Assembly: GCF_005405925.1 (NCBI RefSeq)
Contig: NZ_BJHV01000001.1
Coordinates: forward strand, 806,001-870,000
DNA from: Streptomyces antimycoticus
GTDB taxonomy: Bacteria > Actinomycetota > Actinomycetes > Streptomycetales > Streptomycetaceae
Reading direction: 5' to 3'
Length of the DNA: 64,000 nt
The notes below the pieces were generated by a model. The model searched no databases, was not told where the DNA came from, and saw only the letters and a program-made list of their open reading frames with translations. Below are positions 19,446 through 61,648 of this stretch, piece after piece. Every line of letters starts with the position of its first letter. Within the stretch, counting starts at the first letter, position 1. The position numbers and the translations under genes were made by a program.

Positions 19446-19451
19446 GACTTT

Positions 19452-19553
19452 ATCAGGTTTCCCTATGCCGCAAATTCATTGGCACATGGAAATCCCCAAT
19501 ATACGCCGAGAAACGCCCCGGCCGTCAAGGCAGCCGGGGCGTTTCTCTGTTTT
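19452..19553 (+). ncRNA. Candidate small RNA between helD and the quinone reductase
   Basis: About 100 bases bounded by the promoter-like pair at 19416-19445 and a strong terminator at 19511-19553. The base composition is clearly more AT-rich than in the surrounding genes. No convincing protein fits, as the only frame runs antisense into the reductase gene. I do not recognise a known family. Confidence is limited because it rests on the two flanking signals only. Confidence 0.3.
19511..19553 (+). terminator. Intrinsic terminator, possibly bidirectional
   Basis: A 12-bp stem (19511-19522 with 19533-19544, GC-rich, with AAA/TTT ends) and a 10-base loop, followed on the plus strand by TCTCTGTTTT. 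On the minus strand it lies 16 bases after the quinone reductase stop, so it may serve both directions. Confidence 0.8.
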
Positions 19554-19560
19554 ATGGCCC

Positions 19561-44136: not shown

Positions 44137-44931
44137 GTGCAGATCAACCTTTCCGGTAGGACCGCCCTGGTCACCGGCTCCACGCAGGGCATTGGATTCG
44201 CCATCGCCGCCGGCCTGGCGCGGGCGGGCGCCCGAGTCGCCATCAACGGGCGCCGGCAGGAGTCCGTCGAGGCCGCCATCCAGAAGCTGGAGGAGGACAC
44301 GGAGGGCGGCTCGTTCATCCCCGCCCCCGGCGACATCACGTCCGAGGACGGCGCCCGCGAGGTCACCGGCGCCGTGCCGGACGTCGATGTCCTGGTCAAC
44401 AACCTCGGCATCTTCGGGGCCACTCCGGCGCTGGAGATCAGCGACGACGAGTGGCGGCGCTATTTCGAGGTGAACGTCCTGGCCTCCGTCCGGATGATCC
44501 GGAGCCTGCTGCCCGGGATGAAGGACCGCGCATGGGGCCGGATCCTGAACGTGGCCAGTGACTCCGCCGTCGTCATCCCGGCCGAGATGATCCACTACGG
44601 GATGTCGAAGACCGCGCTGCTCGCGGTCACCCGCGGCTTCGCCAAGGAGGCCGCCGGTACGGGCGTCACCGTCAACTCACTGATCGCCGGGCCGACCCAC
44701 ACCGGCGGCGTCGAGGACTTCGTGTACGAGCTGGTGGACCCGGAGTTGCCCTGGGAGGAGGCCCAGCGGGAGTTCATGGCCAAGTACCGGCCGCAGTCGC
44801 TGATCCAGCGGCTGATCGAGCCCGAGGAGATCGCCAACATGGCGGTCTACCTCAGCTCGCCGCTCGCCTCGGCCACCACCGGCGGGGCCGTGCGCGCCGA
44901 CGGCGGCTACGTCGACTCGATCCTCCCCTGA
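44137..44931 (+). CDS. Short-chain dehydrogenase/reductase
   Basis: A 264-residue classical SDR. The cofactor motif is TGSTQGIGFAIA, with NGRR after strand 2 suggesting NADP preference. VLVNNLG follows, then the catalytic Ser in VASDSAVV and YGMSK with the Tyr and Lys. The C-terminal motif is ATTGGAVRADGGYVDSILP. The GTG start is at 44137. The substrate is unknown. Confidence 0.94.
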   Translation: MQINLSGRTALVTGSTQGIGFAIAAGLARAGARVAINGRRQESVEAAIQKLEEDTEGGSFIPAPGDITSEDGAREVTGAVPDVDVLVNNLGIFGATPALEISDDEWRRYFEVNVLASVRMIRSLLPGMKDRAWGRILNVASDSAVVIPAEMIHYGMSKTALLAVTRGFAKEAAGTGVTVNSLIAGPTHTGGVEDFVYELVDPELPWEEAQREFMAKYRPQSLIQRLIEPEEIANMAVYLSSPLASATTGGAVRADGGYVDSILP

Positions 44932-45067
44932 CACCTACCCCAGCGCCTTCCTGACGCCTGCTTCGGCGCCCCCGATCCCTGCTTCCGCGCGCCCTTCCGG
45001 TGGGAACCGTTCCGCGTGGACCGGGGGTCCCTAGGGAGCGAAGAAGCAGACAACCTGGGGGGTTCTG

Positions 45068-45736
45068 TTGAGCAATGACGCACTTGCGCATCCTGACCGC
45101 ATCAGAGCGAGTCACTGGATCACCGTTCTGAGACGACAATTCCCCGAGCTGCAGGCGGAGTTGGCGCCCTCCCCGCACCGTCCCGGCCTCGGCCGACAGC
45201 GGGGAGGCGCCGACCGCCGCGGGCCCTCGGAGCCACTACGCCTGCGGGTCTCCGACACCGTACGCGACATCACCGACGGCGTCGTGGAGCTGGAGGAGGC
45301 CGTGCACGACCGGCTCGGGCTGCCGCCCACGGGCAGGGGAACGGTCGAGGTCAGACTGGCCCGTCTCGCGGGGCTGCTGGAACGGGTCGAGGCCGACCCG
45401 TCGCTGATGCGCCATCTGCTGGACGAGGTCAGCGGAATGGCGCGGCGCTGCTCGGGCACCCTCGGGGACGCCGAGCCCGTGGTCCGGCTGCGCGGCCGGT
45501 GCCCGCTGTGTGCCTCGGTCTCGCTGCGGGCCTTTCCGCTGCGCCGTGCGGTGCTGTGCATCAACCCCGGCTGCCGCTGCCCGCACACCGCGTGCGGCTG
45601 CCATGCGGACCGGGCACATCGGCACTCCTGGCCGGAGGGCGAGTGGACGGAGCTGGCGGCCGGCGGCGCGCTCGTCCTGGAGGAGATCACCGCCGCCCTG
45701 AACGGAGGTTGCACCGTCGTGGCGGTGAGCCGATGA
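45068..45736 (+). CDS. Zinc-ribbon protein heading the tail operon
   Basis: A 222-residue protein of unknown function. The C-terminal third carries a Cys-rich zinc-ribbon-like cluster (GRCPLCASVS, then INPGCRCPHTACGCHADRAHRH). The N-terminal part is helical and charged. It starts at TTG 45068 behind a G-rich ribosome site. Its stop overlaps the next gene's ATG as ATGA. Similar proteins with a small HTH partner occur at the head of actinophage structural operons, so a regulatory role is inferred. Confidence 0.7.
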   Translation: MSNDALAHPDRIRASHWITVLRRQFPELQAELAPSPHRPGLGRQRGGADRRGPSEPLRLRVSDTVRDITDGVVELEEAVHDRLGLPPTGRGTVEVRLARLAGLLERVEADPSLMRHLLDEVSGMARRCSGTLGDAEPVVRLRGRCPLCASVSLRAFPLRRAVLCINPGCRCPHTACGCHADRAHRHSWPEGEWTELAAGGALVLEEITAALNGGCTVVAVSR

Positions 45737-45930
45737 GGACCACACAGGCGCCCGAGTATCCGTTGCTGACCGCAGCCGTGGCCGCTGTGGAGGTGGGCGT
45801 CACCCCGGCCACCATCCGCAAGTGGGTGCAGCTGAAGCATCTGCGGCCCGCGGGGCGTCAGGGCAAGGCGTTTCTCTATCGGCTGGAGGATGTGTTCGCG
45901 GCCGAGCGGGCCACACGACGACGTACGTGA
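45733..45930 (+). CDS. Small MerR/excisionase-like HTH protein
   Basis: A 65-residue protein consisting almost entirely of one winged-helix motif: LLTAAVAAVEVGVTPATIRKWVQLKHLRPAGRQGKAFLYRLEDVFAAE. The ATIRKWVQLKHL helix and the YRLEDV wing match phage excisionase or MerR-like DNA-binding domains. ATGA overlap with the upstream gene. It probably regulates the tail genes, which start 165 bases later. Confidence 0.82.
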   Translation: MRTTQAPEYPLLTAAVAAVEVGVTPATIRKWVQLKHLRPAGRQGKAFLYRLEDVFAAERATRRRT

Positions 45931-46033
45931 CCTGCGGGCCCCATGGTCATCCCGGCATAAGTGACGACAAGTGGTTGTCAATGGGCATCCGGTGCATCAC
46001 ACTTGGTGCCAGCGGCGGAGCTGTGCCCCTGGA

Positions 46034-46057
46034 GGGGCCACGGCCCCGCCGCTTTTC
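46034..46057 (+). terminator. Weak hairpin with T tract between regulators and tail genes
   Basis: GGGGC (46034-46038), loop CACG, GCCCC (46043-46047), then GCCGCTTTT. It may be an attenuator controlling entry into the tail genes. The short stem makes this tentative. A TTGTCA box near 45974 is the only promoter-like element I see in this gap. Confidence 0.35.
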
Positions 46058-46094
46058 GCTGTGCGCAGCCCTGACCACAGCAAGGAGTGCGCGC

Positions 46095-46502
46095 ATGACC
46101 GAGCCCTTGGTGATCTTTTCTGACGTCGAACGCCTCGTCGTCGAGCATCTGAAGAACCGCCCCGAACTGGCCGGGGTACTCGTGGACAACCGGACCCCGC
46201 CGGATTTCGACGGAACCCAGAAGGCCGTGCTGATCTCGCGGGCCGGCGGCGTCTGGGTCGAGGACATCCATCTGGACCAGCCGCTGGTCGACCTCGAGGT
46301 GTACGGCCCGGACAAACCCACGGCCCACACGGTCGCCACGGCCGCCCGTACGGCGCTGTTCACCGTGCGTGGCACCACGTTCGGCACCGCCTGTGTCACC
46401 GATGTCTCCGAGGTGGACGGCCCCCGGTGGCTGCCCGACTACCTGCACGCCGCCGCCAGCCGCTATGTGTCCACGGCCCGGCTCTCCATCCGCCCGGCGT
46501 AG
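46095..46502 (+). CDS. Phage tail terminator-like protein
   Basis: A 135-residue protein. VIFSDVERLVVEHLKNRPELAGVLVDNRTPPDF and GPRWLPDYLHAAASRYVSTARLSIRP resemble siphophage tail-terminator/tail-completion proteins, which cap the tail tube. The position, first in the structural block and just before the tube gene, fits. AAGGAG is well placed before the ATG. Assignment is by pattern and gene order. Confidence 0.72.
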   Translation: MTEPLVIFSDVERLVVEHLKNRPELAGVLVDNRTPPDFDGTQKAVLISRAGGVWVEDIHLDQPLVDLEVYGPDKPTAHTVATAARTALFTVRGTTFGTACVTDVSEVDGPRWLPDYLHAAASRYVSTARLSIRPA

Positions 46503-46556
46503 GCCACGTACCAGCCGACCGTTCGCCCTCATCATCACGCCACAAGGAGCAATCGC

Positions 46557-47132
46557 ATGCCCGGAATGAACCCCAATGAGATCCGCGTCGCGGGCACCGG
46601 CCGCATCCTGACCGCCCCGCTCGGCACGACCGTCCCGGCCGATGTCTCCACGGCGTGGGCGGCGGGCTGGAAGGACCTCGGGTACACCACCACCGACGGC
46701 ATCAAGTTCAACAAGAAGGACAAGATCGACCCGGTGGACACCTGGCAGTCGGTCAGCCCGGCCCGCTTCGTCTACTCCGACCGCGACCTCACCGTGAAGT
46801 TCCAGCTGCTCCAGCTCAACGAGGACACCCTGCCGTTCTTCTTCGGCGGCGCCGTGGTGGCGGAGACGGAGACCGAGTCCAAGGTGTACCGCTACGAACT
46901 CGCCGCCGAGCCGAAGAAGGACGAGCGGATGCTGGGCGTGGAGTTCGCCGACGGCGATGTCATCACGTACCGGTTCGTCCTCCGCCGCGGCCAGGTCACC
47001 GAGACCGAGGAGCTCCAGCTCACCCGCACCGCCGCGGTCCGGCTCGGGGTCACCTTCACGGCGCTGGCCGTGGACAACGACACCCCGCTGGCCACCTGGC
47101 TGATGAACGACCCGGCGTTCGCCGGATCCTGA
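46557..47132 (+). CDS. Phage major tail (tube) protein
   Basis: A 191-residue protein. The opening NPNEIRVAGTGRILTAPLGTTVPADVSTAWAAGWKDLGYTTTDGIKF is highly typical of actinophage major tail proteins, and ELQLTRTAAVRLGVTFTALAVDNDTPLATWLMND completes the fold. It builds the tube. A ribosome site CAAGGAGCAA precedes the ATG. Confidence 0.87.
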   Translation: MPGMNPNEIRVAGTGRILTAPLGTTVPADVSTAWAAGWKDLGYTTTDGIKFNKKDKIDPVDTWQSVSPARFVYSDRDLTVKFQLLQLNEDTLPFFFGGAVVAETETESKVYRYELAAEPKKDERMLGVEFADGDVITYRFVLRRGQVTETEELQLTRTAAVRLGVTFTALAVDNDTPLATWLMNDPAFAGS

Positions 47133-47171
47133 CCCAAACCCCGCCACGTCGATCGCGAAGGAGCCGCCGCC

Positions 47172-47462
47172 ATGGCTGCGTTCAACGTCAACGCCGCCCG
47201 CGCCCAGCGCCTGGAAGCGCTGGGCCTGACCTGGGACTTCGAGGTGGACGGGGAGACGTTCTCCCTGCCCACCGAGATCCCCCGCCGCTCGGCGCACACG
47301 CTGGCCGAGCTCAAGGACAACGACCTGGACGGGCTGCTCGCCCTCCTCATGGGCGAGGAGAGCTATCAGCGGCTGTGCCAACACGAGGTGAGCGTGCAGG
47401 ACATCGCCGCGATCCTCGAGGCGTACGGGCAGGACACCGGGCTCGGCGTGGGGGAAGGCTGA
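47172..47462 (+). CDS. Tail assembly chaperone, short form
   Basis: A 96-residue protein (MAAFNVNAARAQRLEALGLTWDFEVDGETFSLPTEIPRRSAHTLAELK and DGLLALLMGEESYQRLCQHEVSVQDIAAILEAYGQ). Size, acidity and position between tube and tape measure match lambda gpG-type chaperones. Such genes usually make a longer product by ribosomal frameshifting, and a candidate slippery run (47450-47456) lies just before the stop. Confidence 0.82.
   Translation: MAAFNVNAARAQRLEALGLTWDFEVDGETFSLPTEIPRRSAHTLAELKDNDLDGLLALLMGEESYQRLCQHEVSVQDIAAILEAYGQDTGLGVGEG
47450..47456 (+). other. Candidate -1 programmed frameshift site
   Basis: GGGGGAA lies two codons before the stop at 47460-47462. Slipping back one base after GGG moves the ribosome into the open frame that runs to 47857. 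Confidence 0.6.
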
Positions 47463-47857
47463 GCCTCGGCGCGCTCGTGGAGGAGCACGCCGAGGCGCTG
47501 GAGGCCGATCTGCTGCGGTACTACGGCGTCGACCTGCTCGACTGGCACCGCGAGGCGCTGTCCTCGCGGCGCCTCGCGGTCCTGGTGCGCCACCTTCCGC
47601 CGGACTCGGCGTTCGTACGGACGCGGGAGGGCGAGGCCGCGGAGTGGAGGCTGACGGACCATCTGCTGGCTGCGGTCGTGGACCACTTGGCGATCGCCAA
47701 CTGGATGTTCGCGTCGGCCAACCGCGACGAGTACGCGGACCCGCCGGAGGCGCCGGTACCGGTCCCGAGGCCGGGGGCCGAGGCCGCCGATACGTCCGAC
47801 GGCCCGGGCGAGGGCCACGCGCCGACAGGGGCGGAGTTGGCGCGGTTCTTCGGGTGA
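47453..47857 (+). CDS. Tail assembly chaperone, frameshift extension (gpT-like)
   Basis: An open frame in the -1 register continues from the slippery run: RLSLGALVEEHAEALEADLLRYYGVDLLDWHREALSSRRLAVLVRHLPPDSAFVRT, then a Pro-rich region and GAELARFFG. The YYGVDLLDW and LVRHLPPDSA patches are characteristic of actinophage chaperone extensions. No good ribosome site precedes its first GTG (47477), which favours the frameshift over independent start. The fused protein would be about 228 residues. Confidence 0.78.
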   Translation, partial: GRLSLGALVEEHAEALEADLLRYYGVDLLDWHREALSSRRLAVLVRHLPPDSAFVRTREGEAAEWRLTDHLLAAVVDHLAIANWMFASANRDEYADPPEAPVPVPRPGAEAADTSDGPGEGHAPTGAELARFFG

Positions 47858-47887
47858 AACGGTCCGTTCGAGCTCCCGGGAGGGTGC

Positions 47888-48490
47888 GTGGGAATCAGCG
47901 ACGAGGCGACGAAGGTCGCCGAGGCGGTCGTGGCGAGTTGGCTCAACCGCTACTGGACGGGGTTCCAGAAGCAGTTGCACCAGGAGGCGATGACGCTCAT
48001 CAACTCCGAGGCCAACGCGCTCAAGCTCGAGGCCACGGCGTTCAAGGGCGAAGCCAACCTCGCCACCTACTCCTTCAAGCTGGCGGGGACGGATTTCAAC
48101 CTTCAGGAATTCCTCAAGGAGAGACGCGCCGAGCGGGAGGCACGGCAGACCATCGACGGCATCAAGTCGTCTGTCACCGCCGTGAAGCAGCGGGTGGCGG
48201 CGACGCGGACCTCACTGGCCCGGACGATCCTCCGCGTCCGCACGGAGATCACCTCCGTCCGCACGATCGCCGAGAAGGCCGAGCGGGACAGCCAGCAAGC
48301 CCTGCGAAGGGGCAAGGACGCGCTGCAGAAGGCGGAGGCAGCCCTCCGACGGCAGCGCACGGCCGCGAGCAACGCCCGTGGCCCCACACCGGCCGGGCGG
48401 GTGTCGAACGTGCGGGACATCAATGAGGCGAGCCAGGCCATCAACGAGCTGGAGCGACGCCTGAACGGTCTCGTCAGGGCTCTCGGCTGA
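47888..48490 (+). CDS. Coiled-coil protein of the tail operon, unknown function
   Basis: A 200-residue, highly helical, charged protein. It has long heptad-like stretches (EARQTIDGIKSSVTAVKQRVAATRTSLARTILRVRTEI and AEKAERDSQQALRRGKDALQKAEAALRRQR). GTG start behind GGGAGG. Position between chaperone and tape measure suggests a tape-measure partner or a piece split from it; I do not recognise the family. Confidence 0.7.
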   Translation: MGISDEATKVAEAVVASWLNRYWTGFQKQLHQEAMTLINSEANALKLEATAFKGEANLATYSFKLAGTDFNLQEFLKERRAEREARQTIDGIKSSVTAVKQRVAATRTSLARTILRVRTEITSVRTIAEKAERDSQQALRRGKDALQKAEAALRRQRTAASNARGPTPAGRVSNVRDINEASQAINELERRLNGLVRALG

Positions 48491-48504
48491 GGAGGAGGCC
48501 GCCC

Positions 48505-49662
48505 ATGTCACTGGCACAAGCGCTCAACCGATCCGTCTCCGGCTTCCGCGGGCTGCGCAGCACCGTAGGCCAGACCGATACCAGCGTCTCCCGATTCGCC
48601 CGTACCGCGACGCAGGCGGGCTCCGCCGTCGGCCGCATCAAGGGCGACGTCGACAAGTCGGCCAACTCGATGCGCACCCTGCAGCGAGAGGCCAACGCCG
48701 CCGAGCGCAGCGTCGCCAAGAGCGGCCGCTCCATGACCACCGCGGGTCGCGGCGCGGCCACCGGGGGTGGCCTGATGGGGCGGATGAAGACGGGGCTCCA
48801 GGGGGTGACAACGGCGCAGAAGGGCCTCAACACCGCCATGAAAGCGAACGTGTTCGGGGCCATCATGGCGCTGCTGATGCCACTGATCATGAAGCTCGTC
48901 GACATGGCGATGCAGTCCAAGACGGTCCAGCGCATCGTCCAGGCGGCCTTCAGGGTCATCGGCCAGGTCATCGGCTCCACCATGCGCGTGGCGAAACAAG
49001 TGGTGCAGACGACCTGGAACGGCATCAAGGCGGCGTTCACGGTCGTGCTGAAGGTCATCTGGACCGTCGTGAAGACGTACTTCAACATCTACAAGACCAT
49101 CATCACCACAGTCATCCACGCCATCATGGCCGTGGTCCGGCCCCTGCTGTCCTTCTTCTCGGAGCGGATCCCGGGCGCCTTCCGCTCCGCCCGTAACGGT
49201 ATCCAGCGCGCCTTCAGCGGGCTGGCGGGCATCGTCCGTGGTGCGTTCAGCGCTGTGCTCGGGGCCGTGCGCGGGCCGCTCAACGGGGTGATCGGGCTGG
49301 TCAACCGGGCGATCGGTGCGCTGAACCGGGTCAAGGTCTCGGTGCCCTCATGGGTGCCGGGGATCGGCGGCCGGTCGTTCGGGGTGAACATCCCCACCAT
49401 CCCCACGCTCGCCCAGGGCGGCATCGTGCTGCCGCGCCCCGGTGGCACGCTCGCGCTGCTCGCCGAGGGCGGGCAGGCCGAGGCCGTACTGCCGCTGAAC
49501 CGGCTGAGCACCCTGCTCGCCCGCACCGGGCCCGCGCCCGCCCTGGCGGGATCCGGCGGGCCGGGCGGCGGATTCGTCATCGAGCACTACCACGAAGCCC
49601 CGGGCGGCAGCGCCCGGCAGACCGCCGAGGATCTGATGTTCCTGATGAAGGCGAGGGGGTGA
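48505..49662 (+). CDS. Short tail tape measure protein
   Basis: A 385-residue protein. A helical N-terminus (TSVSRFARTATQAGSAVGRIKGDVDKSANSMRTLQREANAAE) leads to hydrophobic segments (VFGAIMALLMPLIMKLVDMAM and VVLKVIWTVVKTYFNIYKTIITTVIHAIMAVVRPLLSFF). The C-terminal GGIVLPRPGGTLALLAEGGQAEAVLPLNRL is the classic tape-measure ending. It is much shorter than most phage tape measures (700-2000 residues). The gene order confirms the call. Confidence 0.85.
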   Translation: MSLAQALNRSVSGFRGLRSTVGQTDTSVSRFARTATQAGSAVGRIKGDVDKSANSMRTLQREANAAERSVAKSGRSMTTAGRGAATGGGLMGRMKTGLQGVTTAQKGLNTAMKANVFGAIMALLMPLIMKLVDMAMQSKTVQRIVQAAFRVIGQVIGSTMRVAKQVVQTTWNGIKAAFTVVLKVIWTVVKTYFNIYKTIITTVIHAIMAVVRPLLSFFSERIPGAFRSARNGIQRAFSGLAGIVRGAFSAVLGAVRGPLNGVIGLVNRAIGALNRVKVSVPSWVPGIGGRSFGVNIPTIPTLAQGGIVLPRPGGTLALLAEGGQAEAVLPLNRLSTLLARTGPAPALAGSGGPGGGFVIEHYHEAPGGSARQTAEDLMFLMKARG

Positions 49663-49663
49663 C

Positions 49664-50572
49664 ATGGCGGACGAGAGCATCGCCACCGAACCAGGGCCGC
49701 TCATCACCACCGACGGGCAGGTGCAGTGGGCCGGGCTTCTCATGGGCCCCGGCACCGACTACTGGATTGCCGCCGAAGGGCTCACCGGCTGGGAGGAGTT
49801 GCCCGCGCTGGACACCTCCGACGCGGACCGCCCGGTGGGTCACGGCGGCTGGCCGGGGTCGCAGTGGGCGCAGGCCCGTACGGTCACCGCGCAGGTGTGG
49901 TTCGCGCCCGACCCGGACGCCGGACCGGAGGCCGTGCGGGACGCGCTCCGCGCGCTGCGCGCCGCCACCGCCGTACGCGACGAGGAGGAGTGGCTGGCCG
50001 TACGCCTGCACGGCGAGACGCTGGCCGTACGGGCCCGGGTCACCCAGCGCGTGGTCCCCACCGACCGGCAGTTCGCCGCGAGCCGGCTGGCCAAGATGAC
50101 ACTCCAGTGGAAGGCGAGCGATCCACGCCGTTACGAGGCGGTGGGGCGGCGGGACACCGCCGGGCTTCCCCAGCCCGAGGCGGGGCTGACCTGGCCGCTC
50201 AGCTGGCCGCTGGCCTGGGGCGCCCCCAGTTCCACCGGCGATCTCGCGGTGCAGAACGACGGCAGCGCGCCCGCCCATCCGGTGATCACCTTCACCGGGC
50301 CGTGCACCCGGCCACGGCTGGCCAACCGGACCAGCGGCGACTGGCTGGAGTACGCGATCGCCCTCGCCCCGGACGACGAACTCGCCGTCGACACCGCCGA
50401 GGGGACCGTGATGTTCAACGGCACCGCGTCGCGCCGCCACACCGCCACACCCGGCAGCGCCCCGGAGGAGTCGTTCACCTTGCCGTCAGGGACCTCTCAG
50501 CTCTCCTTCCGCGCGGCGTCGGGAGGGGAGGGAGCCACCGCCACGATCACCTGGCGCCGCGCCGAGTGGTGA
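49664..50572 (+). CDS. Siphophage distal tail (Dit-like) protein
   Basis: A 302-residue protein. The N-terminal domain (PLITTDGQVQWAGLLMGPGTDYWIAAEGLTGWEELPALDTSDADRPVGHGGWPGSQWAQARTVTAQVWF) and the galectin-like C-terminal half (PSSTGDLAVQNDGSAPAHPVITFTGPCTRP, then DDELAVDTAEGTVMFNG) are typical of Dit proteins, which form the hub ring at the tail tip. One base separates it from the tape measure stop. Confidence 0.86.
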   Translation: MADESIATEPGPLITTDGQVQWAGLLMGPGTDYWIAAEGLTGWEELPALDTSDADRPVGHGGWPGSQWAQARTVTAQVWFAPDPDAGPEAVRDALRALRAATAVRDEEEWLAVRLHGETLAVRARVTQRVVPTDRQFAASRLAKMTLQWKASDPRRYEAVGRRDTAGLPQPEAGLTWPLSWPLAWGAPSSTGDLAVQNDGSAPAHPVITFTGPCTRPRLANRTSGDWLEYAIALAPDDELAVDTAEGTVMFNGTASRRHTATPGSAPEESFTLPSGTSQLSFRAASGGEGATATITWRRAEW

Positions 50573-50637
50573 GGCGCCGCGCCGCCCCATCGTCCGCTCC
50601 GATCCTTAAACCGCGTACGACCACAAGGAGTTCTCCG

Positions 50638-50661
50638 ATGACCGTGGGAGCCGTCTTATGA
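50638..50661 (+). CDS. Seven-codon leader ORF before the fibre-like gene
   Basis: ATG at 50638 follows a strong AAGGAG and encodes seven residues (MTVGAVL); its stop overlaps the ATG of the next gene (ATGA at 50658). The next gene's own site is the weaker GGGAG. Translation coupling is plausible. Confidence 0.35.
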   Translation: MTVGAVL

Positions 50662-51698
50662 CCGTCCGTTCCGCCTGGCATCTGCCCACCGGCCAGACCC
50701 GTGAGGACACCCGGCTGGCCGTCAGCCTCGGCATGGCGTCCGCCGGACCGCTGCTGACCCGGGCGGGATGCGTGTTCGGCGGGCTGCAGCTCACCGGCAC
50801 CGCCGCCACCGGTATGCAGGCCAAGCTCTCCCCGGGCCAGGTGTGGATCCCGGGAACCTCCACCGGATCACAGGGCGGCTATCCGGTCACCATCGACTCC
50901 GACACCCTGCTGACCGTCGCCGATGGGCACTCCAGTCTGGCCCGTGTGGACGCGCTCGTGGTACGGGTCTACGACACCGACTACGACGGCTCCGGCAAGT
51001 ACGAGGCCGCCCTGGAACTCCTTCAGGGCACCCCGGCAGGCTCCCCCACCGCACCCGCCGTGCCCAAGAACGCGGAGCTTCTCTACGAGATCGCCGTCCC
51101 CGCCGGGGCGTCCGCGGCCAAGGGCATCACCTGGGCCTCCGCCATCACGGACCGCCGCCGCTACACCGCGGCGCTCGGTGGCATCGTCCCCGCCGCGGGC
51201 GGTGCGCCGCACAACGGGGCGTATGCCGGGCAGTACCGCGACGCGGGCGGCCGACTGGAGCGCTGGGACGGCGCCCAGTGGGCGAAGTACATTCCGGACA
51301 CCATAATCCGGCACACCGCGGACTGGGGTGCCACCACCGCCGCCGCCTATCAGGAAATGCTCACCGACACCGTCGCCACGCTCACCGCCACCTTCACCGC
51401 GCCGTACTCGCGCTGGGTGTCCCTCACCTTCGGCGCCTTCACTGCCGCCGACGGTAACGCCACCGCCTACATCTCGTTCCGGCTCAGGACGCAGAGCGGC
51501 ACCGAGGTGCTCGCCCCGTCCGACGACCGCGCGGCGATCCTCGACGGTGCCGGGCGGGCCTCGATCTCCACCTGTTTCCCGGTGGGGAACCTCACCCCCG
51601 GCGCCGTCTACACGGCGACCGCCGCCTACCGTTCCTCGATCGCGGGGACGCGTGTGCACTTCGACAACCGCTTCGTCCGCGTGGATCCGGTGGCGTGA
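50658..51698 (+). CDS. Tail-tip/fibre-like protein
   Basis: A 346-residue protein. The N-terminus (GPLLTRAGCVFGGLQLTGTAATGMQAKLSPGQVWIPGTSTGSQGGYPVTIDSDTLLTVADGHSSLARVDALVVRVYDTDYDGSG) is the virion-attachment part seen in actinophage minor tail proteins. The C-terminal half is a beta-rich domain (TATFTAPYSRWVSLTFGAFTAADGNATAYISF) that may bind a receptor. It sits after Dit, where fibres or baseplate proteins are expected. Confidence 0.78.
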   Translation: MTVRSAWHLPTGQTREDTRLAVSLGMASAGPLLTRAGCVFGGLQLTGTAATGMQAKLSPGQVWIPGTSTGSQGGYPVTIDSDTLLTVADGHSSLARVDALVVRVYDTDYDGSGKYEAALELLQGTPAGSPTAPAVPKNAELLYEIAVPAGASAAKGITWASAITDRRRYTAALGGIVPAAGGAPHNGAYAGQYRDAGGRLERWDGAQWAKYIPDTIIRHTADWGATTAAAYQEMLTDTVATLTATFTAPYSRWVSLTFGAFTAADGNATAYISFRLRTQSGTEVLAPSDDRAAILDGAGRASISTCFPVGNLTPGAVYTATAAYRSSIAGTRVHFDNRFVRVDPVA

Positions 51699-51704
51699 GG
51701 CACC

Positions 51705-52793
51705 GTGGACGCCCGCTACCGCGCCGTCTTCACCGATCTGCGCACCGACCAGGCCATCGATGTACTGCCCCTGCGAGAGGTGGAGTACGACGACTACCTC
51801 GGCAAGCCGGGCTCCCTGACCGCGACCATTCCGGTGCCCGACACCCGGATGGCCCGGCGGGTCCGGGAGCTGGTGGAGGGGCGCACCGCCGTCTATCTGG
51901 AGCGGGGTGACGAGGTCTGCTGGGGTGGCATCGTCTGGACGCTGACCCCGGCCACGGACGACCGGGGCCTCACCACCGTCGGGCTTCAGGCGGCCACCTT
52001 CGACTCCTACGCGGGCCGTCGCTACATCCGCGCGAATCTGAGCTTCACCGCGCTCGACCATCTGGAGATCGTCCGCCGGCTGTGGGACTACATGCAGGGG
52101 TCCGAGGGCGGCCACATCGGCGTGGAATACGAGCCGACCGCCCCCACCGCGGCCCGTACGGTGGCCTACAGCGACGGTGACGAGACCCTGGTGGAGGAGG
52201 CGATCGGGCAACTCGCGGCGATGGAACCGGGTTTCGAGCACCGGATCGCGGTGTACCGGGATCCGGTGACCGGGCGGCGGGTGAGGCTGCTCCAGCTGGG
52301 CTCTCCGACGATCCGGGTGGGCAGCCAGCCGGTGATGCTGGATCTGCCGGGTGATGTGCTGTCGTACTCCTTCCCCCGCGATGCCACGCGCGGCGGGACG
52401 ACCGCGCGGGCCAGGGGTGGTACCCCGGACGGCGGGGCGGGCGGCCCGGTGATGTCCGGGGAACAGGTGGCCGAGGATCTCCTCGCTGCCGGGTTCCCCC
52501 GCCTGGACACCTCGTCCGACCACAGCAATGTCACCGACAAGGCGACGCTCGACGCGTTCGCCCGGTCCGAACTCGCCGCCCTGCGCGGCACGGTGGTCAT
52601 CCCCTCGGTGCGGATCCGCCTCGGCTCGGGCACGACCCCCGCGCTGCTCGGCACCACCGTGCGGCTGCGCATCAAGGACGTGTGGTTCTCCGAGGGGCTG
52701 GACGCCCGCTACCGCGTCGTCGGCATCAAGGTCACCGCCCCGGAGCGGGGACGTCCGGAGACCGCCGATCTGTATCTGGAGGAGGCAGACTGA
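51705..52793 (+). CDS. Siphophage tail hub-like protein (gp37-like)
   Basis: A 362-residue protein. YRAVFTDLRTDQAIDVLPLREVEYDDYLGKPGSLTATIPVPD and TAVYLERGDEVCWGGIVW match the tail-hub (gp27/gp37-like) family. YIRANLSFTALDHLEIVRRLWDYMQ and MLDLPGDVLSYSFPRDATRGG continue it. GTG start at 51705. Its stop overlaps the next ATG as TGATG. Such proteins close the tip of the tail tube. Confidence 0.82.
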   Translation: MDARYRAVFTDLRTDQAIDVLPLREVEYDDYLGKPGSLTATIPVPDTRMARRVRELVEGRTAVYLERGDEVCWGGIVWTLTPATDDRGLTTVGLQAATFDSYAGRRYIRANLSFTALDHLEIVRRLWDYMQGSEGGHIGVEYEPTAPTAARTVAYSDGDETLVEEAIGQLAAMEPGFEHRIAVYRDPVTGRRVRLLQLGSPTIRVGSQPVMLDLPGDVLSYSFPRDATRGGTTARARGGTPDGGAGGPVMSGEQVAEDLLAAGFPRLDTSSDHSNVTDKATLDAFARSELAALRGTVVIPSVRIRLGSGTTPALLGTTVRLRIKDVWFSEGLDARYRVVGIKVTAPERGRPETADLYLEEAD

Positions 52794-52999
52794 TGGCGAA
52801 CCTGCCCGAGGACATCGTGGACCGGATCAGGGCCCTGGAACGTCAGGTGCACCGGCTCACCACCTACGTCAACAGCAAACCCGGCGGGACGCCGACGGCC
52901 CTGGCCGCCACCGAGCCGTCGTCACCACCGCGGACCCAGGCCCAGGAGACCTCCGGGGAGGAGCCGCCGCGGCCCGACGGCACGGCTACGGGCCCCTGA
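52793..52999 (+). CDS. Small tail-operon protein with coiled-coil start
   Basis: A 68-residue protein: a short heptad region (LPEDIVDRIRALERQVHRLTTYV) followed by a Pro/Thr/Glu-rich tail. Often the last gene of actinophage tail operons. The function is unknown. It ends 22 bases before the convergent small ORF at 53022. Confidence 0.7.
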   Translation: MANLPEDIVDRIRALERQVHRLTTYVNSKPGGTPTALAATEPSSPPRTQAQETSGEEPPRPDGTATGP

Positions 53000-53279: not shown

Positions 53280-54401
53280 TCAGCGGGGGCCGGGACGGGC
53301 CGGGGCATCGCACCGGGCCACCACCCGATAGGCGTTGGATATTTTCCCCCGCCCCGCCAGCGGCTTGAGCAGCAGCCGGTCCAAGGTGGTCGCGAGGATC
53401 AGCGCGGGAACGGCCGCGAGCAGCAGCGCACAGCGCAGCAGCCAGCGCGCCCGGCCGGGCGGTCGCGGCAGCGAAGGGGCGTCATCGGGCGGGATGACCG
53501 CGTTCACGGACAGCCATACGGCGCCCAGCAGATCGACCGTGTCGGACGGTTCGCGGTGCTCCTCGGCGATGACGGTGAAGCCGAGCGCGTCCAGTTCCTT
53601 CCGGAGGTTCGCCACCGGCAGGAAGTGCAGATGCTGGGGCTGGAGCCAGGGCAGCCAGAAGCGGCCGAGGAGCCGGGCGAACCAGCACTCCGGATCGGGT
53701 ACCTCGATCAGCAGATGGCCACCGGGGCGCAGCGCCCGCCGGGCCGCGCGGAGTTCGTCGCGGGGATCGGTGCTGTGCTCCAGATAGTGGAACATGCTCA
53801 CCACGTCGTAGCCCCCGGCCAGGCGCTCTTCTGCCAGCTCGGGGAAGCTGCCACGGATGCCCCGGTCTATGCGCCCCGTCCGCTCGGCCAGGTCGACGCC
53901 GTCGGTGAAGTCCAGTCCGTCGAAGCGGGTGCCGGGGAAGACGGTACGGGCCACCGCGGGGAAGTGGCCATGTCCGGTGCCGACATCGAGCCAGGTCTTC
54001 GGGGGCTCGGCGGAGGGGTCCTGGAACATCGCGCGCCTCCGGTAGACCTTGTCCCGCCCGGCGAAGAGGTTGCCGAGTTCGATCTCCCCCATCCCGTCGT
54101 AGAAGTCGCGGTAGTAGAACTCCAGGCCGTCGCCGTTCAGCCTGGGATTCTGGAACACGTGGCGGCAGTCGGCACACGCGTCGAGCGCGAAGCGGCCCGG
54201 CTTGCTCTGGTAGCGGTCCCTGGTGCGCAGCCGCCGCTTCAGCCGCGTCGAACCGCACCACGGACAGTCGGTACGGCGCGGCTCGAAGAACCGCCCGGTG
54301 CCCCGCGCCAGATCGGCCTGATAGCGGGGGCGCAGCGCTGCGACGGTCTCGGCGCGCGACGGCTTCGCGGGCGTACGTGGTGCGTCGGACGTGCGGCTCA
54401 T
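53280..54401 (-). CDS. SAM-dependent methyltransferase with zinc motif and C-terminal membrane segment
   Basis: A 373-residue protein. An N-terminal zinc-ribbon-like CPWCGS..CADC pair is followed by a class I methyltransferase core: TWLDVGTGHGHFPAVARTVFPGTRFDGLDF, then DVVSMFHYLEHSTDPRDELRAARRALRPGGHLLIEVPDPE. The C-terminus has a hydrophobic span (WLLRCALLLAAVPALILATTL), suggesting a membrane-bound lipid substrate. ATGA overlap with the glycosyltransferase gene. This type (Methyltransf_23 with a Cys pair) often methylates sugars or lipids. Substrate inferred: the operon's glycolipid. Confidence 0.85.
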   Translation of the reverse strand: MSRTSDAPRTPAKPSRAETVAALRPRYQADLARGTGRFFEPRRTDCPWCGSTRLKRRLRTRDRYQSKPGRFALDACADCRHVFQNPRLNGDGLEFYYRDFYDGMGEIELGNLFAGRDKVYRRRAMFQDPSAEPPKTWLDVGTGHGHFPAVARTVFPGTRFDGLDFTDGVDLAERTGRIDRGIRGSFPELAEERLAGGYDVVSMFHYLEHSTDPRDELRAARRALRPGGHLLIEVPDPECWFARLLGRFWLPWLQPQHLHFLPVANLRKELDALGFTVIAEEHREPSDTVDLLGAVWLSVNAVIPPDDAPSLPRPPGRARWLLRCALLLAAVPALILATTLDRLLLKPLAGRGKISNAYRVVARCDAPARPGPR

Positions 54402-56684: not shown

Positions 56685-57011
56685 TCAGCTCTCCCCGGCC
56701 GCCCTGAGGCACCGCACGACATACTCGACGAGCTGCCCCACCGCGAGGTCGATGATCTCGTCGAGCTCCAGGCCCGCCACGAACTCGGCGAAGTTGACCT
56801 GTCTGCCGTACCGGGCCTCCAGGCTGCCGGCCAGCGCCACCAGGTCGATGCTCTCCAGCTCCAGATCCTCGGTGAAGCGGGTCTCCATGGTGACCTCGAT
56901 ATCGTCGAGGCCGTATTCGTCGAGCATCGTCCGGAGCATCCCGGATATCTCCGCGAGCACGGCCGGTGCGTCGGCGGGGGGTGCCGAGACGGTCTGATTG
57001 ACGGTGGTCAC
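56685..57011 (-). CDS. Free acyl carrier protein
   Basis: A 108-residue carrier. The core DIEVTMETRFTEDLELESIDLVALAGSLEARYG has the phosphopantetheine Ser in LESIDL. It is acidic. GTG start at 57011 overlaps the PKS stop as GTGA. Its likely loader is the PPTase-like end of the PKS just upstream. A discrete ACP beside megasynthases recalls enediyne, glycolipid and fatty-acid systems. Confidence 0.9.
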   Translation of the reverse strand: MTTVNQTVSAPPADAPAVLAEISGMLRTMLDEYGLDDIEVTMETRFTEDLELESIDLVALAGSLEARYGRQVNFAEFVAGLELDEIIDLAVGQLVEYVVRCLRAAGES

Positions 57012-60000
57012 TGGTCGCTCTCCTCGTCCTGTTCCTGGTGGTCCGGGCCGGTCGTCCAGGCCACGGCGTAGTCCCGGTCCGGCAGTCCGGGCGGGTTGGC
57101 GATGGTGCTGCAGTGGACCTGGTAGCGGCGCGGGCGCTGACCGGGGGCGGTGGCCGCCACCTCGACGATGAGCCGGGCCGGTGCCGCGTCGGGGTGATCG
57201 GCTCCCGGCAGTGCCTCGGCGATGATGAGGGCATGTGGCCGGTTGTGTAGGGCGGTGCCCTCCGCCGTGGCGACCGCCTCCTTCGCGGCCCGGAAGGTGG
57301 TGGCCCAGCGGGCACGCGATTCGCGACCCCCGGCCGTCGCGGTCGCGAGGAGATCCCGCTCGGCCCGGCCGAAGGCGGCCGCGAGGGCGTGGTCGTCGCG
57401 GTGGGCGACCTCTTCGAGGGCGATACCGGGGCCCGGGGCCCCGTGTGCGCGCGGCACCACGAGGGCGACCCCGGCCTCGGCCCGGTGTGCCAGCGAGAGG
57501 GCCAGTTCGGGCAGGGTCCGGCCGTGGACGCCGATGGCGTACGGACGCCCCTGGGCGTCGTCGCGTATCCCGATCTCGGCGGGGAAGACCGGGCCTTCGC
57601 CGTGGTCCCAGAGCCATCGCCGTACGGCGTCCTTGGCCGCGATCCTGCCCAGCAGCCACTGTCTGCGGCCGCGTGGCGGCTGGTGTTCATATTGCGTGCG
57701 CTCGGCACGGCCCAGGTGGTTACGCATGATCAGATCGCGGGAGGCCAGATCGGGCCAGCGCTCATGGAGCAGCACCCAGCCGCCCGGCTGGGGTCGGGAC
57801 AGCGTGTTGCGCTGTGGGAAGCGCTCCACGGGGCGGGTGTCGGGGTGGTTGTCGAACCGGCGATCCTGCCAGCCCGACAGCTCCGCCCACACCTCGCCGC
57901 CGATCAGCAACTGTGCGTCGGCCTCCAGGGCGGTATCGGTCAGCGAGGTGATCCTGATCAGGCACTCCACCGGTGTGCCGGGACTTGGATGCGGGCCGAA
58001 GAAGCGCATCAGACGCATGCCGACCGGGAAGACCACGGTCCGTTCGGTGCGGGTCGCCATGATCCAGTAGCCGAGGAGCTGTCCGACGTTGTCCAGCAGC
58101 GCTCCCGGCGCGGGGGGTGTGGTGAGCGTGCCGCGTATATGCGACTCGCCGATCGCGGTGAGCGCGGTGAGCCCCTGGAAGGCCGGGCCGTGGAACATCC
58201 AGCGCTCGGCGTAGACGAGCTGTGCGGTGTGGTCGGGGGTGCGCTCGGTGGCGGGGTCGGTGGGCCAGGGGGTGGGACGGGTCGTGGGGTGGTGGGGAGC
58301 GACTTCCACGGTGGCGCGGGCGCTGCGGCCGAAGGTGACGGTGTAGTGGCCCGCCGAGGTGGGGGTCGCGGTGACGGGGACGGTGCTGGGGGGTGCCGCG
58401 GTCACCCACTGGTCGAAGCGGGCGCCGTGGACGGCGACGGCCACGGGGCCTCCGGCCGTGTGCTCCGCCGCTGTGTGCTCCGCCGCTGTGTGCTCCGCCG
58501 CGTCCATGAGGTGCTGGACGATCGTGGTGGCCGGGACCACGGGCCAGCGGTCCGACTCATCGGGCCAGCCGGGGCGTTGGGGGAAGAAGCAGTGGTCATG
58601 GAGGTAGGGCATGGCCTCGGTGGACACCCGCAGATCGTGGGTGCGCGGGGTCGGTGGGCGACTTGCCGCGATGACCGCTGTCGCGGTGGTGGCGGTCTCG
58701 TCGAGCAGGGCGAGTAGTTCGGCGGTCCACGGGGCGGCCGGCGGGTGCGGGGTCGCCCCGTGGGCTGCGTTCGCCGTTGCCGGGTGCGGGTGGGATGGTG
58801 CCCACCCGTTCCGCCCAGGGGGCACCTCCCGGCGGTAGCCGGGGGAGGAACGATCGCCCACCACTTTGCGCAGCTCGCTCAGGCGTGGCTCGTTGAGCGA
58901 GATCAGCGAGCCGTTCAGGTCCAGCCGTACCGGAGGAAGCGTGGGTGTGGGGCGCGAGGCTTCATGCGACAGCGTGGGGTCCACCTCCGCCCCCTCCGTC
59001 CACAAGGCCGTGGCCACACGGCGGAGCTGGGACACGCCGTCTCGGTGGGGGGAGTTGGCGGCCACCACCAGGTGGTCGCGGCCGTGCAGCGTATCGCCGA
59101 TGAGCGACCCCAGCTGGCCCGTGCCGACCTGGACGAACGCGCGGAATCCCGCCTCGTACAGGGCCTCGGTCAGCAGTCGGAAACGCACCGGCTCCAGCAG
59201 GTGGCGGAGGAACAGCTCGCGCACCTCCGCCTCGGTCGCCGGATACGGTGCGGCGGTCGTTCCGGACCAGACGGGGACCCTCGGCGGCAGGAGCAGCTCG
59301 AAGCGTTCCGTCACGGCCCGGATGGGGTCGAGGTAGGGCGCCAGCATCGGGGTGTGGAAACCGGACTGGAAGGGCAGGAGCTGCGCGATCACGCCCTCGG
59401 CGCGCATGGCCCGGACGAACTCCTCGACATCGTCGCGCGGCCCGCACACCATCGACTGGCTGGGCGCGTTGTCGTGCGAGAGCACGATCCGGCCGCCCGC
59501 CCGCGCCTCCAACTCGGCGAGCACCCGTGGCGCACCGGCGCCGAGGACGGCGAAGGCCAGGCCGGGCACCCGCAGCGCGTCGGGGTCGAAGGAATCGAGG
59601 AAGGCGTCCACCTCCTCGCCCGCGTAGAGGCCGCCCACGGCCAGCGCGGTCCACTCCCCCACGCTGTGCCCGGCCACCGCGTCCGGCACGACCCCCATCC
59701 GCCGCAGCGCCGCGTCCAGCAGCCGGCCGACGCCGAAGACGCCTACGCCATGGCGGCCGATGTCGCCCACGCGGGCCGCCTCGCCGAAGCGGTCCCCGGC
59801 GGGGCGGGAGAGCCCGAAGTACTCGGCGACGCCGTCCACGCGGGGGACGAACTCGGCTTCGAGGCCGGGGAAGACGAAGGCGAGCTTTCCCGTGGCAGCC
59901 TTCCCCGTGGCCGCCTTCCCCCTGGCCGCCATCCCTCTGGCCGCCGGGCCCGCGCCGAGCAGTGGCGCGGGGGTGAACCAGATGTCGTTGCGGCCACGCC

Positions 60001-61648
60001 AGGGGCGGCCCTTGGCCACCATGCGCCGCGCGAGCGCGAGCCGTTTGGCGGTGGGGTCGACGATGCCCAGCCGGGTACGGGCGTCCCGCCCCGTCACCGT
60101 CGTCCGTACGGTCGCGTCGTCCGCCGCCAGCAGCTCGGCCAGCCGCTCCGGGGTGTCTGCGGCCAGGGCCAGCACCCGCTCTGGTTCGATGACGACGGTC
60201 GTGGCGTGCGGCGCCACCGGCACCGGCGGCTGCTCCAGCACCACATGGGCGTTGATCCCGCCGAATCCGAAGGCGTTCACGGCGGCGCGCCGTACGGGCG
60301 CCTCCCAGGGCTCGGCCGCGCCGAGCACCGAGAAGCGGGTGGCCGCCAGCGCCGGATGGGGGTCGTCGCAGTGCAGGGTGGGCAGCAGCCGACCGTGGTG
60401 GACCGCGAGGGCGGCCTTCACCAGACCGGCGACACCGGCGGCGGGCATGGTGTGGCCGATCATCGACTTCACCGAGCCGATGACAGCCGTCTCACCCGGG
60501 ATGCCACCGGGGCCGAACACTGCGGCCAGCGTGGTCAGTTCGGCCGTGTCCCCGGCGGGCGTCGCGGTGCCGTGTGCCTCCAGCAGCCCGATGGCGCCCG
60601 GCTCGCGCGGATCGAGGCCCGCGGCCCGCCACGCCTGTCGTACGGCCCGGGTCTGTCCGCCCGGGTCCGGGTTGACCAGACCGGTGGCGCGGCCGTCGGA
60701 GGCCACACCGGTGCCGCGGATCACCGCGTAGACGCGGTCGCCGTCGCGGAGTGCGTCGGCGAGCCGCTTGAGGACGACCACACCGGTGCCCTCGCCGATC
60801 AATAGGCCGTCGGCCGCGCGGTGGAAGGGCCGGATCCGCTGGCTCGGCGAGAGCGCGCGCAGCTGCGAGAACACGCTCCACAGGGTGATGTCATGGCAGT
60901 GGTGCACCCCGCCCGCGAGCATCACATCGCATCGGCCCGAGGCCAGCTCCCCCACCGCCTGGTCGACGGCGACGAGCGAGGAGGCGCAGGCGGCGTCCAC
61001 GGTGTACGCGGGGCCGCGCAGATCGAGCCGGTTGGCGATGCGCGAGGCGGCGAGGTTGGGCACCAGGCCGATGGCCGCCTCGGGCTTGTCCGGGCCGAGC
61101 CGCTCGGTGAACGCGGCCCGTACGAGGTCGAGTTGGCCGGGTTCGAGGTCGGGCAGCAGCTCACCGAGGGTCCGTACGAGCTGGTGGGCGGTGCGCACCC
61201 GCTGGTCGAGCCGGACCAGCCCGGGGGTGAGATAGCCGCCCCGGCCCAGCACCACGCCCACCCGCTGCCGGGCGGGGAGCCGGTCCTCACCGCCCGCGTC
61301 GGCGATGGCCGCCGCCGCGACGCCCAGGGCGATCAACTGGTCGGGTTCGGTGCCGGACACCGAGTTCGGCATGATCCCGAACCGCGCGGCCTCGATCCGG
61401 GCGAACTCGTCCACGAACCCGCCCCGCCGGCAGTACACCCGGTCGGGCGCCGCGGGCGTGTCGCCACCGCCCTCCGGGGCATAGAAACCGGCGTCCCACC
61501 GCCCGGCCGGGACGTCGCTGATGGCGTCCACGCCGCCGACCAGGTTGCGCCAGTAGGCGTCCAGGTCCGGGGAGCCGGGCAGCAGCACGGACATGCCGAC
61601 GATGGCCACCGGCGGCTGCCGGTGCGCCTGCTCGTCCGTCACGCTCAC
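57008..61648 (-). CDS. Type I PKS: KS-AT-DH with C-terminal PPTase-like domain
   Basis: A 1546-residue megasynthase. KS: VDAACASSLVAVDQAVGEL with the active Cys near residue 222, EAHGTATPAGD and NAFGFGGINAHVVLE. AT: AVAGHSVGEWTALAVG near residue 659. A double-hotdog DH follows with MPYLHDHCFFPQRP near 1018 and DNVGQLLGYWI. The last 200 residues look like a phosphopantetheinyl transferase (LSLAHRAEAGVALVVP, FRAAKEAVATAEG), but the metal-binding GIDxE is GIALEE. No ACP lies in the protein; the separate ACP serves it. The plan recalls PfaB/PfaC-type and hglE-type synthases. I chose the GTG at 61648, which overlaps the upstream stop as GTGA. Confidence 0.9.
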   Translation of the reverse strand: MSVTDEQAHRQPPVAIVGMSVLLPGSPDLDAYWRNLVGGVDAISDVPAGRWDAGFYAPEGGGDTPAAPDRVYCRRGGFVDEFARIEAARFGIMPNSVSGTEPDQLIALGVAAAAIADAGGEDRLPARQRVGVVLGRGGYLTPGLVRLDQRVRTAHQLVRTLGELLPDLEPGQLDLVRAAFTERLGPDKPEAAIGLVPNLAASRIANRLDLRGPAYTVDAACASSLVAVDQAVGELASGRCDVMLAGGVHHCHDITLWSVFSQLRALSPSQRIRPFHRAADGLLIGEGTGVVVLKRLADALRDGDRVYAVIRGTGVASDGRATGLVNPDPGGQTRAVRQAWRAAGLDPREPGAIGLLEAHGTATPAGDTAELTTLAAVFGPGGIPGETAVIGSVKSMIGHTMPAAGVAGLVKAALAVHHGRLLPTLHCDDPHPALAATRFSVLGAAEPWEAPVRRAAVNAFGFGGINAHVVLEQPPVPVAPHATTVVIEPERVLALAADTPERLAELLAADDATVRTTVTGRDARTRLGIVDPTAKRLALARRMVAKGRPWRGRNDIWFTPAPLLGAGPAARGMAARGKAATGKAATGKLAFVFPGLEAEFVPRVDGVAEYFGLSRPAGDRFGEAARVGDIGRHGVGVFGVGRLLDAALRRMGVVPDAVAGHSVGEWTALAVGGLYAGEEVDAFLDSFDPDALRVPGLAFAVLGAGAPRVLAELEARAGGRIVLSHDNAPSQSMVCGPRDDVEEFVRAMRAEGVIAQLLPFQSGFHTPMLAPYLDPIRAVTERFELLLPPRVPVWSGTTAAPYPATEAEVRELFLRHLLEPVRFRLLTEALYEAGFRAFVQVGTGQLGSLIGDTLHGRDHLVVAANSPHRDGVSQLRRVATALWTEGAEVDPTLSHEASRPTPTLPPVRLDLNGSLISLNEPRLSELRKVVGDRSSPGYRREVPPGRNGWAPSHPHPATANAAHGATPHPPAAPWTAELLALLDETATTATAVIAASRPPTPRTHDLRVSTEAMPYLHDHCFFPQRPGWPDESDRWPVVPATTIVQHLMDAAEHTAAEHTAAEHTAGGPVAVAVHGARFDQWVTAAPPSTVPVTATPTSAGHYTVTFGRSARATVEVAPHHPTTRPTPWPTDPATERTPDHTAQLVYAERWMFHGPAFQGLTALTAIGESHIRGTLTTPPAPGALLDNVGQLLGYWIMATRTERTVVFPVGMRLMRFFGPHPSPGTPVECLIRITSLTDTALEADAQLLIGGEVWAELSGWQDRRFDNHPDTRPVERFPQRNTLSRPQPGGWVLLHERWPDLASRDLIMRNHLGRAERTQYEHQPPRGRRQWLLGRIAAKDAVRRWLWDHGEGPVFPAEIGIRDDAQGRPYAIGVHGRTLPELALSLAHRAEAGVALVVPRAHGAPGPGIALEEVAHRDDHALAAAFGRAERDLLATATAGGRESRARWATTFRAAKEAVATAEGTALHNRPHALIIAEALPGADHPDAAPARLIVEVAATAPGQRPRRYQVHCSTIANPPGLPDRDYAVAWTTGPDHQEQDEESDQ
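58458..58502. repeat. 15-bp in-frame tandem repeat (3 copies) in the PKS
   Basis: Three near-identical 15-bp units encode repeated Ala-Ala-Glu-His-Thr in a loop of the DH domain. Confidence 0.85.
59886..59945. repeat. 15-bp in-frame tandem repeat (4 degenerate copies) in the PKS
   Basis: Four units encode a repeated Ala-Ala-x-Gly-Lys linker between the KS and AT domains. Confidence 0.8.

Follow-up and report, generated by a model that had tools for sequence, protein, structure and literature searches.

F-type tailocins (F-pyocin, monocin and rhizoviticin) are headless particles encoded by non-contractile tail genes that are arranged in phage order and accompanied by their own regulators, and killing by these particles has been shown. 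In F-pyocin and monocin, the lysis genes are located within the locus. The rhizoviticin locus is without head genes and contains lysis genes, and F-type tailocins are called rare in the same report, with F-pyocin and monocin as the other cases (excerpt of PMC10811719); the action of F-type particles is called largely unknown (excerpt of PMC8910223). In Streptomyces, a tail-derived contractile injection system (CIS, SLP) is widespread in the genus according to excerpts of two papers (PMC8910223, PMC10066040), and the Streptomyces tail-like particles in the literature found, among the matches listed, are contractile only. No description of a non-contractile headless tail locus in Streptomyces was found among the open-licence PMC titles and abstract starts listed, a scope that subscription papers and preprints mostly lie beyond. 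Here we report on a tail block at positions 45068-52999 of a 64,000-nucleotide stretch (referred to below as the window) of the 11.17 Mb genome of Streptomyces antimycoticus. We propose that this block encodes a headless, short, non-contractile tail, a functional particle that the host lineage has probably retained and that would act in the manner of an F-type tailocin.

The sequence supports this proposal in several ways: the tail gene set is complete, head genes were not detected, the genes are under purifying selection, and a regulator pair as well as a conserved cis element precede the tail genes. The block resembles the F-type tailocins in its headless non-contractile tail genes, phage gene order and own regulators, and differs from them in its regulator pair with a hairpin element, in an additional gene slot (X200), and in having no lysis genes. 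With lysis genes missing from the block and killing only predicted, it is not claimed as a member of the F-type tailocins. Streptomyces siphophages (Raleighvirus, Picardvirus SV1, Kromp) have the tail gene order of the block; the distal tail protein (Dit) is 41-47% identical to those of Streptomyces siphophages among 25 matches listed, and the tube protein is 37.5% identical to that of Kromp. The siphophages, however, possess head, packaging, and lysis genes, and their tape measures are about 740-1604 aa long, compared with 385 aa in the block.

The tail gene set, head genes and selection

Every named gene is present in the tail block, in phage order, on the + strand and with an open frame (Table 1). 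The original prediction, made by reading the sequence, had listed terminator, tube, frameshifted chaperone, tape measure, Dit, fibre-like and hub-like genes in this order with two small regulator-like genes in front; the tail genes are borne out by PHROG and Pfam matches, the two small genes correspond to R1zn and the MerR-like protein, and X200, SML and the cis element are additions to that list. With the slip site, these matches make up the complete non-contractile tail gene set of an F-type tailocin. The chaperone G frame ends in GTG GGG GAA GGC TGA, with the slip heptamer G GGG GAA directly 5' of TGA, and this heptamer plus an open -1 frame (129-163 codons) was found in 39/39 loci with a called chaperone G, the window counted. 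The ten block proteins scanned gave no match to a sheath or a TIGR02243-type baseplate protein, and a contractile system was rejected for the block. Hub, Dit and tube compared with solved structures gave nothing at E <= 0.1.

Head genes were searched for with three Pfam families (HK97 capsid PF05065, SPP1-type portal PF05133, and Phage_portal PF04860) and two reference phages, other capsid families being outside the reach of this test. None of the three families was found anywhere in the S. antimycoticus genome, and terminase, portal and capsid of the two reference phages gave no tblastn match in the window at E <= 1e-4; the locus is therefore free of head and packaging genes by these searches, as are F-type tailocins. 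Among the 40 genomes with related tubes, the portal families were searched in all and PF05065 in 39 (G395 left out; G and L numbers denote genomes and loci). The portal searches weigh most, since both reference phages score on SPP1_portal and neither capsid reaches a Pfam cut-off. A capsid or portal gene lay within 40 kb of 0/41 family tubes (>=52% identical), some family tubes being on contigs shorter than 40 kb (L072, L070, L077, L078, L089), versus 4/5 diverged tubes (<=42%). The nearest one on the same contig as a family tube is about 319 kb away, compared with 5-7 kb for the diverged tubes, and the same searches do find head genes in genomes with related tubes, beside other tubes. A prophage with nearby head genes was rejected on the 0/41 count and the empty window tblastn. 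An intact prophage was rejected as well, as capsid, portal, terminase and integrase were not found with the tail (integrase by tblastn with one serine integrase), and so was a gene transfer agent, the genome having neither the PF05065 capsid nor a portal of the families tested.

The structural genes of the block are under purifying selection. In a plain Nei-Gojobori count on GC-rich codons over 11 clade rows, the ratio of nonsynonymous to synonymous substitution rates (dN/dS) was 0.04-0.40 for the terminator, tube, both chaperones, tape measure, Dit, fibre and hub, and 0.24-0.33 for R1zn. The flanking genes gave 0.22-0.34 (short-chain dehydrogenase, SDR; 8 loci), 0.23-0.30 (beta-glucosidase, BGL; 6 loci), 0.18-0.22 (methyltransferase, MT), and 0.18-0.36 (ABH); SML (0.15-0.68), the MerR-like gene (0-0.38), and X200 are looser. 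Leaving X200 aside, the genes from terminator to hub do not exceed the SDR and BGL values of the flanks. The nearest named relatives at the locus are Streptomyces, and the same unit recurs in the S. violaceusniger clade and its relatives, the named carriers being S. endocoffeicus, S. violaceusniger, S. rugosispiralis, S. iranensis, S. sparsogenes, S. milbemycinicus, and strains NBS 14/10 and S465. Both window flanks are common to L099, L100 and L102, and to L101 as far as its contig reaches; L104 shares mainly the left flank, L103 and L106 occupy another common site, and L105 a third. The first and last genes of the unit are constant across these different sites.

Several further points of the original prediction were upheld by these data: capsid, portal, terminase, integrase and lysis genes were missing in the searches made (for lysis genes, the window block against the family amidase and holin-like genes), host genes flank the block on both sides, and the intact frames go with selection, as seen from dN/dS in 11 clade loci and from recurrence of the complete unit. 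Two of the checks that it proposed also came out in its favour. Across strains, the complete unit with the same ends is present at several sites in named species, with no prophage head genes nearby, and both tube and fibre genes fall within the dN/dS range given above. Of its two refuting observations, nearby head genes and decay of frames, neither was seen in the window's clade, and decay does occur elsewhere in the family.

Table 1. Features of the tail block and its leader, in window positions
Feature	Position	Strand	Match or evidence
Conserved leader/promoter-like stretch, 5' of R1zn	44995..45067	+	contains dyad GGAACCGTTCC
R1zn, 222 aa, Cys/His-rich, putative tail-operon regulator	45068..45736	+	distant PHROG 1467 match 2e-10
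MerR-like helix-turn-helix protein, 65 aa	45733..45930	+	PHROG 2474 1e-14; HTH_17 4e-6, barely above cut-off
Cis element R1: TCACxxT, then GC-rich hairpin, 5' of tail genes	45997..46060	+	72.8 bits
Tail terminator, 135 aa	46095..46502	+	PHROG 123 6e-20
Tail tube protein, 191 aa	46557..47132	+	PF25681 3e-67; PHROG major tail protein 5e-40
Tail assembly chaperone G, 96 aa	47172..47462	+	PHROG 10551 5e-19; slip site GGGGGAA 47450-47456
Chaperone T, -1 frame extension	47456..47857	+	open -1 frame; homologues in relatives
X200, variable mosaic coiled-coil-like protein, 200 aa	47888..48490	+	identity drop, dN/dS, helical model
Tape measure protein, 385 aa	48505..49662	+	PHROG 3981 2e-22 plus others
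Distal tail protein (Dit type), 302 aa	49664..50572	+	PHROG 5577 2e-81; PF22768 9e-8
Fibre/receptor-binding candidate, 346 aa, TNF/C1q-like C-terminal domain	50658..51698	+	PHROG virion structural protein 1e-57
Hub-like minor tail protein, 362 aa	51705..52793	+	PHROG 1885 3e-68
SML, 68 aa, short coiled-coil protein	52793..52999	+	related to start of 237-aa protein at other loci

The twelve genes form a compact (+) unit that is bordered by a dehydrogenase gene at 44137-44931 and by a methyltransferase gene on the minus strand at 53280-54401, as called by a home-made gene caller. Beta-glucosidase and short-chain dehydrogenase genes are found on the left, and methyltransferase, glycosyltransferase and polyketide genes on the right, named by reading of the sequences; peptide-synthetase-like and polyketide-synthase-like genes are present on either side at window positions 1012-3399 and 57008-63906 (by reading). 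The names S7, S12, DnaE, DnaK, SDR, BGL, polyketide and holin-like in this work are all names by reading with no family scan behind them. The methyltransferase gene shows a dS of 0.37-0.42 to five clade loci, compared with 0.07-0.18 for SDR, BGL and ABH there, and was perhaps replaced by recombination.

Family spread and locus types

Of 392 Streptomyces genomes, 82 contain full-length tubes at least 52% identical, at 83 places in all; the tubes of G008 and G248 (two matches each) had been set aside before this count. Any tube match at E <= 1e-10 was present in 99/392 genomes of the genus. Loci were fetched for 51 of the 83 tube places, together with 8 loci of named strains. In the tube tree, a branch with support 93/97 separates 60 tail-only rows from 11 phage or prophage rows; three very-long-branch phage tubes and one prophage row (L117) were left out of this tree. 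In a first tree, the tubes of phages Verabelle and Gilgamesh, two of those long branches, were placed among the tail-only rows. The simplest reading of these relationships is a single family of headless tails rather than many separate remnants. A hub search over the order gave matches in 70/391 genomes at E <= 1e-60; as the same hub family occurs in phages, these matches did not enter the counts of tail-only loci.

In type A loci, a divergent helix-turn-helix (HTH) repressor gene (PF01381) and often a WhiB-like gene (weak, below cut-off) accompany R1zn, the MerR-like gene and the tail; many also contain an Amidase_2 endolysin and small holin-like genes, and some adjoin rpsL/rpsG (by reading). 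Type B is the compact type of the window, with 15 fetched rows (L059-L065, L099-L106), 14 of them distinct (L059 and L102 are the same S. iranensis contig, and other rows may be near-duplicates). R1zn and the MerR-like gene are present in 12/15 of these rows and absent in L063-L065, and none of the 15 fetched stretches matched the type A repressor, WhiB-like, amidase or holin-like genes. Type C (L070-L074, L076) is a second compact tail-only type, located beside a DnaE-like gene without R1zn, MerR-like gene or element at the locus; two protease-like genes and one band-7-like gene (by reading) lie upstream of it.

The putative switch and the X200 slot

R1zn has no Pfam or NCBIfam match and, apart from its distant PHROG match, no match among 50,697 phage records; its three weak matches to solved structures, the best of them to a small barrel protein (E 7e-4, 37 residues), were all taken as chance. 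Conservation in the window and 11 relatives begins at the leader stretch 5' of R1zn even where the upstream flank is unrelated, and the intergenic stretch between the MerR-like and terminator genes is strongly conserved (12 rows). The element core (<=1 motif mismatch) was located 56-203 bases 5' of the terminator match in 48/48 tail-only rows with both regulators, in 1/12 without both (L077; R1zn is on a different contig of that genome), and in 0/9 phage-type rows. L084, counted among the rows without both regulators, has an element copy farther upstream and R1zn beyond that copy.

A covariance model of the element, built from 28 rows that match by construction, detected it in 84/392 genomes, in a single copy each. 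R1zn was found in 81/392 genomes (74 of the 82 tube genomes plus 7 others); 78 genomes have both, 6 the element only and 3 (G003, G018, G402) R1zn only, and the Fisher test of this pairing ignores relatedness. All 76 element matches at E <= 1e-5 are in R1zn genomes, and the six matches without R1zn are all weak (E 4e-5 to 6e-4). Element and R1zn lie within 6 kb of each other in 74/75 same-contig pairs; in three further pairs they are on separate contigs. In 5 phages and 9 phage-type loci, the sequence fetched contained no element match better than E 0.49. Over the 28 rows, 98% of hairpin cells are paired, with compensatory changes at 2/14 pairs; covariation score, paired cells, and cells changed on both sides exceeded 500/500 shuffles and slid versions.

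The regulator genes are inverted or located at the far end in L069, L078, L080, L081 and L122-L124, and the element stays 5' of the tail genes. Since the regulators move and the element does not, we read the element as the putative target of R1zn and the MerR-like protein in the leader of the tail operon. No sigma-70-type promoter was found by scanning. The hairpin lacks a T run of the kind required by the terminator scan and was missed by it. All Rfam matches were sub-threshold, and the best of them (sbcD RNA, 45931-46055, E 0.017, 28.7 bits versus a gathering score of 40) was taken as chance. The SOS-type box is TCGAAC-N4-GTTCGA; no match to it was found in 44931-45068 or 45930-46095, and its 34 matches in the whole window at <=3 mismatches are uninformative, 20 being expected. 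R1zn and the element together can serve as a marker for finding such tail loci in other genomes.

X200 is encoded between the chaperone and the tape measure, a position at which no gene was found in 5/5 phages viewed. Identity over 47867-48467 drops to 40-69% in most 200-base bins of 7/8 clade loci (84-94% in L101), compared with 85-98% on the tape-measure side and mostly 81-99% on the chaperone side. The L106 protein is 79-100% identical to that of the window over its first 84 residues and 14-40% over the remainder, and the L100 protein is 7-67% identical and then 86-95% near its end. Judged from these alignments, X200 is a mosaic cassette whose segments are shuffled and swapped among close relatives. 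Its dN/dS was 0.66-0.79 in 6/7 alignable clade rows and 0.30 in L101; 4/11 rows do not align. The slot is filled in 16/16 window-type rows (15 by gene call, L061 by tblastn), and a word-based search of 5.77 billion proteins returned ten homologues at E <= 1e-3, the named ones all from Streptomyces. The structure model (helix - hairpin - long helix - helix) was used for helix order only because of its low confidence (mean pLDDT 56.7, pTM 0.27). In two S. sparsogenes records (P0006, P0010), the X200 alleles differ from each other, being 53% and 44% identical to that of the window, and the slot may therefore vary within a species. X200 may be a payload, plug, structural or immunity protein.

Proposed function and alternatives

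In the proposed mechanism, R1zn and the MerR-like protein would act at the element to turn on tail gene expression; because the hairpin looks like part of the operon leader, R1zn could be a late activator or antiterminator with a Q-like role. Tail length follows a rule of about 0.15 nm per tape-measure residue, and the tube would polymerise on the 385-aa tape measure into a stubby tail of at most ~58 nm. Dit and hub would make the tip, and the fibre head, which has a TNF-like lectin fold and matches predicted phage receptor-binding proteins, would select the target cells. Docking may then open the target membrane or pass the tape measure, perhaps with X200.

A number of observations weigh against such a particle. 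No lysis or holin-like gene and no repressor is present in the fetched stretch of any of the 15 window-type rows, and searches of these rows and the block with the family amidase and holin-like genes did not find the lysis genes that F-type tailocin loci contain; release would thus require that the producing hypha dies or that another locus supplies a lytic enzyme. Of the five covariation measures, two are not above the shuffled values (both-side-changed pairs 2 versus 1.9, further pair types 7 versus 8.0), and the 3' arm of the element is altered in L118 and L122-L124, which weakens a simple terminator model and suggests that the 5' half may be the essential part. G388, G324, G192 and G032 have no tail genes and retain repressor, R1zn, MerR-like gene, element and a small holin-like gene; the tube matches of G008 and G248 each come in two pieces, the G226 tube match holds a TGA, and the G012 system is split over ~500 kb. 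Given the tail-less loci and broken tubes, the system is dispensable in places and is at times lost. Among the tail-less loci L142-L145, three adjoin DnaK-like genes (by reading), and the L145 stretch is only 8 kb.

As to a lytic enzyme elsewhere, the closest intact relative of the family amidase in the S. antimycoticus genome (63%) is ~440 kb away, next to genes for a TIGR02243 baseplate protein and a DUF6519 protein, whereas another relative (61%) is interrupted by a stop. The former belongs to a contractile-type tail locus, L135 (G000:C1:1292000-1311999), at 10073-19837 with TIGR02243, DUF6519 and Amidase_2, and the same amidase and contractile-type neighbours occur together in the clade genomes G396, G120, G408 and G384. 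This amidase could serve both machines or the contractile one only.

The missing lysis genes also speak for a repurposed intracellular tail, one that stays in the hypha and acts in stress-induced cell death or development rather than as an antibacterial weapon, which we consider rather unlikely. The contractile system of Streptomyces resides in the cytoplasm and brings about cell death (excerpt of PMC10066040), and S. antimycoticus itself has a contractile-type locus; the fibre, however, retains its lectin-like receptor-binding head under purifying selection, and related loci with an Amidase_2 endolysin beside the tail fit a released particle. Relatedness of the tail proteins to Streptomyces phages could point to a decaying, functionless prophage remnant with frames still open after a recent loss, and decayed or tail-less loci do exist in the family, but dN/dS is well below 1 across many species, the slip site is kept in 39/39 loci, the unit ends are identical at several sites, and the family tubes stand apart from phage tubes, all of which make a remnant very improbable. 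Of the three options in the original prediction (tailocin-like particle, another repurposed tail, domesticated remnant), the F-type-tailocin-like particle thus ranks best and the remnant least likely.

The same phage relatedness, and the swapped, mosaic X200, have been considered in favour of an anti-phage or phage-parasitising device, in which the tail or X200 would hinder infecting phages by decoy, receptor masking or superinfection exclusion. Immunity genes can be swapped mosaics, but a decoy needs less than a complete tail with a receptor-binding head, and we regard such a device as hardly to be expected. It is unlikely, on our estimate, that R1zn and the MerR-like protein form a purpose-built, antitermination-like switch on the leader hairpin and that X200, which is swapped among close relatives alongside constant receptor-binding parts, is carried in or on the tube as a payload delivered to the target. 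Protein delivery is known from contractile systems, and if the payload idea is true, a non-contractile tail would be a protein-delivery device.

The preferred interpretation remains that of a headless, F-type-tailocin-like tail kept as a functional particle. A widespread, selected family of non-contractile headless tails that has its own regulator, its own element and a swappable cassette would give these antibiotic producers a second tail-derived machine, and the action of F-type particles would become testable in culturable Streptomyces.

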